Shown here one piece after another: positions 1 to 16,949 of a stretch of DNA of 64,000 bases (positions are counted from its first letter, which is position 1; every line of letters starts with the position of its first letter). Below the pieces are notes generated by a model. That model was not told the DNA's origin and did not search any database. It saw only the letters and a program-made list of their open reading frames with translations. The DNA is from Lacunisphaera sp. GTDB lineage: Bacteria > Verrucomicrobiota > Verrucomicrobiia > Opitutales > Opitutaceae. The stretch covers positions 232,985 to 296,984 of the forward strand of contig JAQSCO010000057.1 in the NCBI GenBank assembly GCA_029945445.1, in the 5' to 3' direction. The translations under genes were made by a program, and so were the position numbers.

Positions 1-837
1 ATCCACCCGGGTGAAAAGCGTCCTGAGGTCAGGCCGCTCCACCCAACGATCAATATCGTCCTAAGCCACACCGGCATCGCCGCCGACAAGCAGCTGCTCG
101 CGCTGGTGCCGGACGGCACGCTCTTTGCCGGAGCGCACGACCATGTGCGCTTCGTGCAGCCGTCCGGCCGCACGGTGTATTTCCATTCGGGCTCCTGGGG
201 CGAATACCTCTCGCTGGCCTGGCTCTGCCGCGATGCCGCCGGCGCGCCGCGCTGGGTGGTTGAGCAAATCCACCTCGCGACCGATGGCCCGGCTGAGGCC
301 GCGCTGGCCGCGCTCATTCGGGAGACCAAAGCCAAATACCTGACACCCGAGGACACCGCCGTGGTCGGCCGGGTCGCGGTGGCGATGTCCACCGCCGAAG
401 CGGCGAAGTTTGCGGCCGGTGCGCTGGCGGACGCCGCCAAGGTTGACGCCGCCTTCATCGGCAACACCACCTTCGGTGCCGGCCTGCCGGCGGGCGGCGT
501 CACCCGCACGGAATTTGATTCCTGTGTGCGCTTCGACGGGACCCTTTGCACGGCGGAGGTTGGCGGCGCGAGGTTGCAGCAACTGTTGGCTGCAGCCAAC
601 CAAGGGCCAGACACGCCGTTCGAGCAGCGGCATGGCGAGTTCTGCTTCGCCGCCGGCCCGGGGGTCATCGACCCTGCAAAAACCTACCGAATTGCCACGA
701 CGGACTGGGGCGCAAAGAACAGCGTACGCTACTTCGGCGAGCCGGTCATCGTCTGGTCGGAGCAGCCGGCACTGAAGCTGAAGGCGGCGGTGCTGGCCAA
801 GCTGGCGGGCACCAACGCCGCGCCGGCGGGTCGTTGA
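1..837 (+). CDS. 5'-nucleotidase / metallophosphatase, C-terminal part (5' end outside window)
   Basis: The reading frame is open from base 1 to a TGA at 835-837, so the 5' end is cut by the window edge. The first residues contain the end of a calcineurin-like phosphoesterase domain: LSHTGIAADKQLL, then AGAHDHV, the second being a typical GxHDH metal-binding signature. The remainder (about residues 100-265) matches the 5'-nucleotidase C-terminal substrate domain, with a GAGLPAGGVTRTEFD stretch and a GVIDPAKTYRIATTD stretch. Members hydrolyse nucleotides or other phosphate esters, usually outside the cytoplasm. Odd point: bases 16-44, in frame just before the LSHTG motif, are a 29-bp repeat that recurs between genes at 15062-15090 with one mismatch. 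The encoded peptide EKRPEVRPLHP looks foreign to the fold. Substrate is unknown. It lies 4 bases before the transglycosylase gene. Confidence 0.75.
   Translation: MHPGEKRPEVRPLHPTINIVLSHTGIAADKQLLALVPDGTLFAGAHDHVRFVQPSGRTVYFHSGSWGEYLSLAWLCRDAAGAPRWVVEQIHLATDGPAEAALAALIRETKAKYLTPEDTAVVGRVAVAMSTAEAAKFAAGALADAAKVDAAFIGNTTFGAGLPAGGVTRTEFDSCVRFDGTLCTAEVGGARLQQLLAAANQGPDTPFEQRHGEFCFAAGPGVIDPAKTYRIATTDWGAKNSVRYFGEPVIVWSEQPALKLKAAVLAKLAGTNAAPAGR
16..44 (-). repeat. 29-bp interspersed repeat, copy 1, inside a coding frame
   Basis: This is identical, except for one base, to the reverse complement of 15062-15090. Here it lies in frame within the 5'-nucleotidase gene, while the other copy is between genes. 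The core GAGGTCAGGCCGCTCCACC is shared. Confidence 0.75.
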
Positions 838-12666: not shown

Positions 12667-14740
12667 ATGAAATCCCCTCGCGTCGTTGCGTTTCTCCTCA
12701 CGCTGGCGCTGTCCGTGACAGTGTTCGGTGCGGACAAGCGGCCCCTCACGCCGCAGGACCTCTGGGCGATCAAGCGCCTGGGCGGCCCTGCGCTCTCCCC
12801 CGACGGCAAGACCGTCGTGTTCACCGTCCAGGACTGGTCCATCGAAAAGAACAAGAGCACATCCAGCCTCTGGCTCGTGGACACGGCCGGCGGCGCCCCG
12901 CACCGACAGCTCCGCGACGTGGAGCCCCGACGGCGCCCGCCTCGCCTTCCTGTCGAAACGCGGCGACGACGAAACCGTCTCGCTCTACGTGATGAACGTG
13001 GGCGGCGGCGAACCGGAGAAGATCCTCGAGCTGCCCTACGCCGTCAGTAACCCCCGCTGGCTCCCGGACGGCACGGTGATCATCGTCGCGACCACGGTCA
13101 TTCCCGAGCTGGCCGGCTCGCTCGGCAAGGCCGACCTTGCCGCGATGAAGAAGGAGATCAAGCGCCGCAAGGACTCCAAGATAACCGCCCGGGTCACCGA
13201 GAACCGCCAATACCGCTATTTCGACCACTACCTGACCGACAACCTCGCCAGCCGCCTGCTCCGCGTCGAGGTGGGCACGCACGCGGTCAGGGATCTCACG
13301 CCGAAGTCCACCCAGCTCTTCAGCAGCAGCGGGGAAGTCGACTACGATATCTCGCCCGACGGGACCGGCATCGCGCTGGTCATGAATTCCACGCCACCGC
13401 CCTACCGCGAGGAGAACAACGCCGACATCTACCTCGTGCCCACCGACGGTTCCGGCGCGCGGCGGAACCTCACGGCCGAGAACAAGGGCACCGACTCGGC
13501 GCCGGTCTTCGCGCCCGACGGCAAGTCGCTGGTCTATGCGCACACCCGCACGACGATCCACAACGGCGAGTCCGACAAGCTCTGGCGCCATGATTTCGCC
13601 ACCGGGAAGAACACGCCGGTCACCGAGACGCTCGACTGCGCCCTGAGCGGCGCGAAGTTCGCGCCCGACGGCCGCACCCTCTGGGTCACCGCCGAGCAGC
13701 GCGGCCACGTGCCGGTTTTCCGGCTGAACGCGGACGGCTCCGGCTTCGCGGCCGTTTTCTCCGAGGGCACGTCCTCCGCGCTGGACGTCGGCCGCGCCGG
13801 CGTCGTGTTCCTCAACGACACCACCAGCCGGCCGAACGAGCTCTTCTACCTCGATGCCGCCACCGGCGCCGTGCGCCAGCTCACCCACGTCAACGATGCG
13901 TTCATGGCGCAGATCGACCTCGGGCGCGTCGAGGAATACACCTTCCCGGGCGCGAACAACGAGACGATCCACGGCTGGCTCGTCTACCCGCCGGGCTACG
14001 ACGCGAACAAACGCTACCCGCTCGTCGAGCTGATGCACGGCGGCCCGCACACGATGAACCGCGACAGCTGGAGCTACCGCTGGAATACGCAGTGCTTCGC
14101 CGCGCCGGGCTACATGGTCACCTGGGTCAACCGCCACGGGTCGACCGGGTTCGGGGAAAAGTTCGCCATGAGCATCATCAACCAGTGGGGCGACATGCCG
14201 TTCGAGGATATCATGAAGTCGGCGGACTACCTGCTGAAGCGTTTCCCGAACCTGGATCCGGAGCGCACGGCCGCGGCCGGCGCCAGCTACGGCGGCTACA
14301 TGGCCGCGTGGGTGCTCGGGCACACCGACCGCTTCAAGGCCATCATCGATCACGCCGGCGTCAACGACTCCTACGCCCAATACGCCACGGATGTCCCGCA
14401 CGGCTTTCCGCAGGTGATGGGTGGCACACCCTGGGGCGACGTCGCCGGCCTCCAGAAGGAGAACCCGATGTTCTACGCGAGGAACTTCAAGACGCCGACG
14501 CTCATCCTGCACGGCGAGATCGACTATCGCGTGCCCTACGGCAACGGCCTCGTGCTCTACGGCGTGCTGCAGGCGATGGGCGTGCCGTCGCGCCTCGTGG
14601 TGTTCCCCGACGAGAACCACTGGGTCCTGCACCCGCAGAACGCCATCTATTGGCACTGGGAGATGCAGAACTGGCTCAGCCGTTACATCGGCGGCAAGCC
14701 GGTGCTGGAGAAGCCGGTCTTCGACGCGGAAGCAAAGTAG
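12667..14740 (+). CDS. S9-family (prolyl oligopeptidase/DPP-IV-like) peptidase with an apparent frameshift
   Basis: The signal peptide and first propeller strands (from ATG 12667: MKSPRVVAFLLT, then LSPDGKTVVFTVQDW, up to SSLWLVDTAGGAP) are in one frame. From about 12905 on, the family alignment continues in the next frame (TDSSATWSPDGARLAFLSKR) through to the TAG at 14738. The two frames overlap between 12728 and 13050, and the switch lies near 12895-12925. A strand linking GGAP to TDSS is short, so a small deletion of a non-triplet length is likely. The catalytic alpha/beta-hydrolase domain is intact: nucleophile in GASYGGYMAAW, Asp in HGEIDYRVP, His in DENHWV. It is either a recent frameshift, a sequencing error, or a protein restarting in frame 2 without its signal peptide. 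Confidence 0.75.
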
Positions 14741-15061: not shown

Positions 15062-15123
15062 GGGTGGAGCGGCCTGACCTCAGGGCGCTTGCAGGAAACG
15101 CGCTGGGGTCAGCGCGTTCCACC
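15062..15123. repeat. 29-bp repeat copy 2 with adjacent 9-bp stem hairpin
   Basis: Bases 15062-15090 are the reverse complement of 16-44 with one mismatch. The adjoining part forms a perfect 9-bp stem, AACGCGCTG / CAGCGCGTT (15097-15105 with 15110-15118). The unit ends at both sides with GGTGGA or its complement, so the whole element looks like a palindromic REP-type repeat. Confidence 0.7.
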
Positions 15124-15657
15124 CACCTTCGGTGCCGTCAGGCTGTAGACGTGATGATCCACGTGGTGATCGTAGAGCCACTCGGCTTTCTTGAGCGTGC
15201 TCACCTGCTTGAAGCCGAGCTTGGCCGGCAGCCGCTGCGCGCGGAGGTTGCCTGTCGCGACGGCGATGACGACCTGCTTGACCTGCAGTTGGGCGAAAGA
15301 GTCGTCGATCACGGCGCGGAAACACTGGGTCATGATGCCCCGGCCCTCGCGGTCCGGCGCCAACCAGTAAAAAGGGAAGGCGATCCGGTGAGCCCAGTCG
15401 ATCCGGTTCTGCCCGATCACGCCGACCAGCCGGTTGTCGGACCAGATACCGCAAGTGTAGGCACGCGTCGCCGTGAAATCGCGCAAGGTGTCCGCGATGT
15501 ATTTTTCGGTGTCGGCCAGTTTGACCGTGGCGTCGACCCACGGGAGCCACTCGCGCAGTTTAGCCCGGTGGGCGTCGATGACCGCGAACAGCGCGGTGGC
15601 ATCCGCGGGCTGCAGCTGCCGCAACTCCAGGCCGGGCTTGATGCGATGGCGGAGCAT
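15109..15657 (-). CDS. GNAT N-acetyltransferase, RimJ/RimL type
   Basis: A 182-residue acetyltransferase. LELRQLQPADATALF opens the domain, and the acetyl-CoA pyrophosphate loop is in PDREGRGIMTQCFRAV (RxGxG-like). NLRAQRLPAKLGFKQV is the canonical N-x-x-S/A-x-x-x-x-x-x-LGF segment of RimJ/RimL enzymes, which acetylate N-termini of ribosomal proteins, other proteins or small molecules. The start at 15657 gives the usual family length; the reading frame continues upstream into the next gene without homology. The end runs into the edge of the hairpin repeat at 15062-15123, so its last codons (about PKVGGTR) derive from repeat DNA. Confidence 0.85.
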   Translation of the reverse strand: MLRHRIKPGLELRQLQPADATALFAVIDAHRAKLREWLPWVDATVKLADTEKYIADTLRDFTATRAYTCGIWSDNRLVGVIGQNRIDWAHRIAFPFYWLAPDREGRGIMTQCFRAVIDDSFAQLQVKQVVIAVATGNLRAQRLPAKLGFKQVSTLKKAEWLYDHHVDHHVYSLTAPKVGGTR

Positions 15658-15668
15658 GGGATCAGGCG

Positions 15669-16949
15669 TTACGCCGGTTTCACCAGCGTGAGCACGCACT
15701 CGAGGTGGCGGGTCTGCGGAAAGAGATCGAACGGCTGCACGGCCGTGAGCTGGTAACCGGCGGCGAGGAAGCCCTTCAGGTCGCGCATCTGCGTCGCCGG
15801 ATCGCACGACACGTAGACCACAGCACGCGGGCTGAACGCGAAGAGCTGATGGAGAAAAAGCTCGTCGCAGCCCTTGCGCGGCGGATCGATGACGACCGCC
15901 GTGTCGCCGGGCGGGAAGGTGAGCCCGGCGAAGATCTGCGGCGCGTCGGCCGCGAGGAAGGTGGCGTTGGTGATGCCGTTGGCGGCGGCGTTCTCCGTGG
16001 CGAATTTAACCGAGGTGGTGCTCAGCTCCACGCCGGCCACGCGCGCGAAGGCCGGCGCGCAGCTCAGGGCGAACAGCCCGCTGCCGCAGTAGGCGTCGAC
16101 CAGGAACTTGGCGCCACTGCCGGCCGCCTGTTCGCGCACATAGCCGGTGAACGCGGGCAGGATGAACGGGTTGTTCTGAAAAAAGTCGCGGGCGAGGAAG
16201 TGCAGCTTGAGCGCCCCCACCTGCTCGTGGATGACGGCGTCGTAGTCGGTGATCACACCCTCTTGGGCGTGCCGCAGCAGCAGCGTGGCATCGCGCTTAT
16301 ATTCCCCAGCCGCGAGACGGACCTGCGTCCTGGCACGAACCTCGGGCAGCTTGGCGTTGATCTCCGGCGTGGCGATGGGGCAGGCCGGCACATCCACGAT
16401 TTCAAAGCGCGAGCCCTGCTTGAGGAAGCCAATGGCGGCGGGCTCACCGATCGCGCGGTCCCTACTCCAAGCCTGGAAGTGCGGCGTGATCTTCGAACGG
16501 TAATTGAACTCGCGCGGTGAGCCGATGACGGCGTTCACGGAAAATTCCACCCCAGCCATGTATTTCAGGAGCTCCTCCACCTGCTGGCGCTTCCACTTCA
16601 GCTGCTCGGCGTAGGTCAGGTGCTGGTATTGGCAGCCGCCGCAGCGGCCGAAGAGGGGGCACTGCGGGGCGATGCGGTGCGGCGAGGGGGTCAGGACGGC
16701 GAGCAGATCGGCCTCGGAGTAGTTCTTGTGGTTGCGGTAGACCCGCGCCTTCACCTGCTCGCCCGGCAGGGTGAATGGCACCATGACGACCCAGCCGCCG
16801 GACGGCGGAGAAACCTGAGGGCTGAGACCTGAAACCTGAGGAAAAGCGACCCGGCCGAGGCCCACGCCGAGGTTGGTCAGCGTGGAAATCTCCAGCTCCA
16901 GCTCGTGATGGTAGGGAAACGGTTGGTCGTTGAATTTATTTTTGGCCAC
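15669..16949 (-). CDS. TrmA/RlmD-family class I 23S rRNA/tRNA (uracil-5-)methyltransferase
   Basis: 426 residues. The N-terminal TRAM-like beta barrel is followed by the iron-sulfur cluster cysteines in CPLFGRCGGCQYQHL, then the SAM-binding domain with DAYCGSGLFAL. The catalytic region has DPPRKGC and the VYVSCDPATQMRDL motif with the nucleophilic Cys. It makes 5-methyluridine in rRNA or tRNA; whether RlmD-like or TrmA-like cannot be fixed. Residues about 36-47 (PQVSGLSPQVSPP) come from a CCTGAGG/CCTGAAAC degenerate repeat inserted in frame into the TRAM domain (16810-16845). The only available start is the GTG at 16949, inside an inverted repeat shared with the divergent neighbour. Confidence 0.85.
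   Translation of the reverse strand: MAKNKFNDQPFPYHHELELEISTLTNLGVGLGRVAFPQVSGLSPQVSPPSGGWVVMVPFTLPGEQVKARVYRNHKNYSEADLLAVLTPSPHRIAPQCPLFGRCGGCQYQHLTYAEQLKWKRQQVEELLKYMAGVEFSVNAVIGSPREFNYRSKITPHFQAWSRDRAIGEPAAIGFLKQGSRFEIVDVPACPIATPEINAKLPEVRARTQVRLAAGEYKRDATLLLRHAQEGVITDYDAVIHEQVGALKLHFLARDFFQNNPFILPAFTGYVREQAAGSGAKFLVDAYCGSGLFALSCAPAFARVAGVELSTTSVKFATENAAANGITNATFLAADAPQIFAGLTFPPGDTAVVIDPPRKGCDELFLHQLFAFSPRAVVYVSCDPATQMRDLKGFLAAGYQLTAVQPFDLFPQTRHLECVLTLVKPA
16810..16845. repeat. Degenerate CCTGAGG/CCTGAAACC repeat inserted in coding sequence
   Basis: Two near-copies, separated by GCTGAGA, of the AAACCTGAGG type occur in about 35 bases. The encoded peptide FPQVSGLSPQVS is itself repetitive and interrupts the TRAM barrel of the RNA methyltransferase. 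Confidence 0.6.

Follow-up and report, generated by a model that had tools for sequence, protein, structure and literature searches.

An in-frame pair of inverted REP-like palindromes in a nucleotidase-family gene of Lacunisphaera sp.

The stretch of DNA analysed here, referred to as the window, comprises 64,000 nucleotides (C57:232985-296984) of the 4.17-Mb, 66-contig genome of Lacunisphaera sp. (GCA_029945445.1; genome G000). A nucleotidase-family gene carrying a palindromic element crosses its left edge, and a second copy of the element is found further to the right. The features concerned are listed below, with negative positions lying upstream of the window.

-617 to 837 (L013:7368-8822), plus strand: whole nucleotidase-family gene, 484 codons, GTG start
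1..837, plus strand: 3' part of this gene (open reading frame list, Pfam, and AlphaFold2 model of the G007 orthologue)
-33 to 43 (G000:C57:232951-233027), no strand: in-gene REP pair of 77 bp, encoding VERADPSALNDIHPGEKRPEVRPLHP
C57:232951-232970 (plus) and 233008-233027 (minus): core pair of the in-gene element, from the core search
1..43, no strand: part of the in-gene 77-bp REP pair inside the window; the left arm lies just beyond the window edge
16..43, minus strand: right arm of the REP pair inside the gene, from the sequence match
12728..14740, plus strand: gene of the prolyl oligopeptidase family, to the left of the second pair (Pfam PF00326)
15063..15123, no strand: second REP pair, also complete (61 bp), lying between convergent genes for a peptidase S9 and a GNAT protein
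15109..15807, minus strand: gene for a GNAT acetyltransferase, to the right of the second pair (Pfam PF13302)

The initial annotation had described positions 16-44 as a 29-bp repeat shared with an intergenic element at 15062-15090. The match itself was confirmed (97%, one mismatch, opposite strands), but the extent of the unit had to be revised. The 28-29 bases at 16-44 belong to a 77-bp unit of two inverted REP-like palindromes, whose right arm they form, and the other copy, although intergenic as described, is not an isolated 29-mer but the left arm of the 61-bp pair at 15063-15123. The stop codon of the minus-strand GNAT gene (15109-15111) comes from the TGACC motif of this second pair. The right arm at 16..43 shares all of its 28 nt with one arm of a different G000 pair (L002). 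REP arm stems are 8 bp long, and the arms begin with GGTGGA, i.e. they have a GTGG end; judged by the ends described for most O. terrae GTAG-20 elements, they may belong to the GTAG family.

When the window was searched with a 28-mer containing one degenerate base, at most three mismatches being allowed, two places only were found, and 100 shuffles gave none. A genome-wide count of the repeat, which had been proposed as a check, returned 39 copies of the core GGTGGARCGNNNTGACCNCA at no more than one mismatch (28 of them exact), against 0 for a reversed-pattern control. Together, the shuffles and the genome count rule out a chance repeat. The listed cores lie mostly in inverted pairs. With arms accepted at no more than two mismatches and pair lists taken from the fetched loci, G000 gave 17 inverted pairs, 48-83 bp in length, and all loci fetched together gave 52 distinct pairs. 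The G000 loci cover 30 of the 39 cores; outside them are a likely pair at C61:46733-46852 and single cores at C18, C51:96916, and C57:62384. For the same-genus genomes G007 and G003, the loci are those of the first 30 cores each. The arm and frame statistics of all three genomes are thus samples. At L086:4454-4534, the loop motif is altered in both arms of a REP pair, with the letters still matching (TGTCC, GGACA).

After upstream sequence had been added, the nucleotidase open reading frame was found to be open across the entire element, and the repeat lies in frame and upstream of the LSHTG motif, as first proposed. Pfam analysis of the protein gave 5_nucleotid_C (5'-nucleotidase C-terminal) and Metallophos (calcineurin-like phosphoesterase), both over cut-off; an NCBIfam search with the same protein gave no match, and a sequence search against PDB chains gave a single short match that looked unrelated. 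The G007 orthologue, which bears the insert, was modelled by AlphaFold2 with a mean pLDDT of 92.5; the best match of this model in the PDB is E. coli 5'-nucleotidase (E 3e-25, TM about 0.5), and it also matches CD73 (TM about 0.6). In this model the insert is placed between a helix ending at residue 180 and a strand at 209-215, where three blocks covering 181-210 have pLDDT values of 60, 57, and 67 and two short low-confidence helices are drawn. The insert is thus predicted to be a low-confidence loop in a confident nucleotidase fold. The LSH motif on the strand that follows is presumably metal-binding, by analogy. The structure alignment used 52 of 67 loci, 53 having been tried and one with an internal stop left out.

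The repeat at this locus is very probably explained by the insertion of a REPIN-like REP pair into the nucleotidase loop with the frame kept. An inverted REP pair would be a small repeat that does not move autonomously, and one copy of 77 bp would have entered the loop between the helix and the LSH-bearing strand of a 5'-nucleotidase-family enzyme, adding a loop of about 27 residues. Each arm, read directly, is stop-free in two of three frames, and the remaining frame reads TGA. The coding frame would have survived because two of the three arm frames are open and because small length differences at the junctions keep the total in frame.

Filled and empty sites were then compared among relatives. 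The nucleotidase gene was present in 14 of 21 same-genus genomes. The full 77-bp pair was found in three of the 14 (G000, G003, and G007), with base, frame, and length identical; two others (G016 and G001) had short insertions, and the site was empty, with a short linker, in nine. At the family scale, a nucleotidase match was obtained in 68 of 252 genomes; 38 of these matches had no locus of their own, and four (G002, G009, G011, and G017) were read via other loci. For G012, L125 was used. The matches of G250 and G216, also among those without a locus, reach slightly into the linker. The short linker was likewise found in alphaproteobacterial homologues and in nearly all other Opitutaceae rows. 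Conservation of the peptide in other nucleotidases, which had been named as the result that would speak against an insertion, was therefore not general. Although a related peptide occurs in G003 and G007, the view that these nucleotidases carried it ancestrally is extremely improbable, given the short linkers outside these species and the fact that the DNA of the insert is a genome-wide repeat. The empty sites in relatives suggest that the element may be mobile. In G194 (L123 / L214), the extra length of the linker comes from a proline-rich stretch, which was rejected by eye as a palindrome. The alphaproteobacterial homologues (L138-L144) are 35-42% identical, raising the possibility of gene transfer from one phylum to another.

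A second insertion in the same nucleotidase loop was observed in G222, a genome of another genus, in which GGAGACGCGGCGCCCTCGCCGCG forms an in-frame inverted pair. Searched in a slightly looser form, this core occurs 69 times in G222 at no more than two mismatches (control 0). The G222 palindrome is unrelated to the G000 family and begins 7 bases later in the loop, indicating an independent event.

The REP-pair insertion explanation is compatible with either repeated or single insertion, and the history of the in-gene copies was evaluated using a nucleotidase tree of 67 rows with the linker removed (from 80 rows, 9 duplicate and 4 incomplete ones had been dropped). G000 joined the empty L080 (100/95), and G003 and G007 grouped with the empty L084, L056, and L087 (96/97); the deeper forks of the group of G000, G003, and G007 fell below the strong-support mark. 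Both in-gene arms of G000 were identical to arms elsewhere in G000, and for the arms of G003 and G007 the closest arm in the pool of the same genome was 2-4 bases away. The empty sister together with arms identical to the current G000 pool favours a recent event in G000. With the unrelated element of G222, these observations point, with a probability slightly above even, to repeated independent insertion into a tolerant or attractive loop, at least once each in G000, in the G003/G007 line, and in G222. This history is opposed by the spacer and exact base position that are common to the copies within the genus.

Those shared features are instead expected from a single insertion in the ancestor of the genus-level group, passed down to G000, G003, and G007, shortened in G016 and G001, and cleanly lost elsewhere via empty-allele recombination or transposase excision, a history that we consider a serious possibility, if somewhat short of an even chance. 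It would account for the common base, frame, and 77-bp length, and for the likeness of the inner spacers. The similarity between the G000 and G007 spacers (score 7) was reached in none of 102 comparisons against other, similarly long pairs; scores as high as those observed were reached in 1 of 102 for G000 and G003 and in 6 of 102 for G003 and G007, and the summed score of the three species was reached by 0 of 2000 shuffles. The pattern of the three spacers matched only one further place in the 21 genus genomes, where REP arms do not adjoin it. Furthermore, the short insertion of G016 scored as the remnant of an arm (2 of 1000 shuffles reached its score), but that of G001 was unconvincing as one (33 and 45 of 1000 shuffles reached its score in two runs). 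Spacer sharing is also not peculiar to these copies, as spacers are shared among other REP pairs too (20 of 272 with a score of 7 or more). In addition, the position of G000 beside an empty L080, and of G003 and G007 among empty species, means that many clean losses would be needed, and the match of both G000 arms to arms elsewhere in that genome is unlike an old copy. Local transfer of insert and flanks from the G003/G007 line into G000 was rejected, since sliding identity gave no signal of it. We therefore lean slightly toward repeated insertion over a single ancestral one.

The element also occurs within other genes. Five of the 17 pairs read in G000 lie in open reading frames with domain support, and in-frame pairs were found in G007 and G003 as well:

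G000, nucleotidase: in-gene pair, with domain support
G000, M20/carbamoylase-like enzyme: in-gene pair, with domain support
G000, methylmalonyl-CoA-mutase-like protein: in-gene pair, open reading frame cut by the locus edge
G000, kinase-TonB and kinase-PEGA proteins: in-gene pairs, in linkers
G007, MnmA and amidase: in-gene pairs, in frame
G003, QueA and Dus (the latter at the end of the domain match): in-gene pairs, in frame

Across the 13 in-ORF elements, two of which (L012 and L086) lack domain support, one open frame yields a VERADPSAL-like peptide class (8 of 13) and the other a WSGLTSGRS-like class (5 of 13); that the stop frame is used by 0 of 13 follows from the choice of open reading frames. 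Because unrelated genes contain the pairs in frame, peptides such as VERADPSAL recur in proteins with no relation to one another. The two kinase proteins and the mutase-like protein of G000 (L041, L043, and L026) have VERADPSAL-like peptides from REP pairs, and three tRNA-modification genes contain in-frame pairs: MnmA (L155), QueA (L190), and Dus (L177). In-gene status was not accepted for L002, L012, L086, L149, L151, L162, L176, L189, and L197, whose spanning open reading frames have no Pfam domain, nor for L022, whose only Pfam domain begins after the element. Of the spanning frames with at least 200 codons, the Pfam check covered all but that of L168 and the minus-strand one of L197.

The effect of the insert on the gene was assessed from substitution patterns. 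The dN/dS of the insert was about 0.5 to 1.3, compared with 0.2 to 0.34 upstream, a comparison of low power because the insert has 27 codons. The enzyme probably tolerates the loop of about 27 residues; the peptide may be neutral, and the insert-bearing enzyme would still work. In all three species pairs, the insert showed less synonymous difference than the upstream sequence, which, with the frame open in three species, makes constraint on the insert DNA possible. The stems remained paired in 46 of 48 cells of the three in-gene copies, and in 4 of the 16 pairs both sides had changed; 5 of 500 shuffles scored as high. This pairing and the lower synonymous difference would fit a hairpin kept for a function of the RNA or DNA within the gene, such as translation pausing or mRNA stability. 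Such a function is nevertheless improbable: REP variants are themselves palindromic, so that separate insertions or gene conversion would give the same pattern; the pairing comes from three sequences; the long-range hairpin gave no covariation signal (298 of 500 shuffles as high); and 9 of the 14 genus orthologues do without the element.

Candidate transposases were searched for in the same genomes. Three of five G000 proteins tried exceeded the NCBI REP_Tyr_transpos cut-off (REP-associated tyrosine transposase, RAYT). A RAYT gene is usually flanked by REPs of its own family. Here, the fetched flanks of 36 Y1_Tnp loci (6 in G000 and 30 in six other genomes; 14 further transposase matches without a locus stand outside this count) contained no REP core at one mismatch or fewer, and we therefore call the element REPIN-like. 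L077 has one loose match to the core, with two mismatches, inside the transposase open reading frame. REPINs were reportedly described by Bertels and Rainey in 2011 as paired inverted REPs that occur in many copies together with RAYT transposases. The present element resembles them in its many-copy inverted REP pairs and in the RAYT genes of G000, but differs in the absence of a core at one mismatch or fewer beside those 36 loci. RAYTs may mobilise the REP pairs in trans, the link between element and transposase being an indirect one.

Rickettsia palindromic elements are in-frame palindromic repeats in unrelated genes that give recurring peptides. The likeness to them suggested in the initial annotation applies to the mechanism, the present element being a palindrome that adds peptides in frame and is also found in unrelated genes. 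It does not extend to identity: the element is a GTGG-ended REP pair of another sequence in Opitutaceae relatives, i.e. in another phylum, whereas RPE-4 and RPE-6 are CGTC-type REPs according to Di Nocera et al. (2013; PMC3733652). The same paper reports GTAG REPs in Opitutus terrae, with in-frame copies in genes, dimers or groups adding 20-30 residues, and most GTAG-20 elements ending in GTGG, as well as two recB genes of Xanthomonas in which REPs occupy roughly the same position. Small mobile repeats have been reviewed (PMC10969869 and PMC2229807), and the abstract of the latter notes that they occur within genes too. A literature search of partial coverage found no further paper with REPs of this bacterial group as the topic of its title. 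The element described here is like the O. terrae repeats in its host group, inverted pairs, GTGG ends, and in-frame in-gene copies, to the extent that the available text of PMC3733652 describes them; a nucleotidase is not named in that text, and the sharing of one site among species and a second palindrome family in the same loop are added here. In-gene REPs are thus already published for O. terrae, and the noteworthy part is the recurrence in one loop.

A broader reading, offered tentatively and with some doubt, is that the loop before the LSH motif may be a recurrent landing site, entered independently by unrelated palindrome families in different Opitutaceae genera and kept in frame, and that the same elements may seed a VERADPSAL-like peptide into many unrelated enzymes. 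If true, this would be a natural experiment on mobile DNA making new protein segments. The locus provides a clean filled- and empty-site case of palindromic repeats lengthening proteins outside Rickettsia, and the occurrence of at least two palindrome families in one loop allows chance plus tolerance to be weighed against targeted insertion.

At the family level, exact cores were present in 52 of 200 genomes. The highest count among the 200, 174 exact cores, was obtained in the 8-Mb genome G062 of another genus, followed by 173 in G132.
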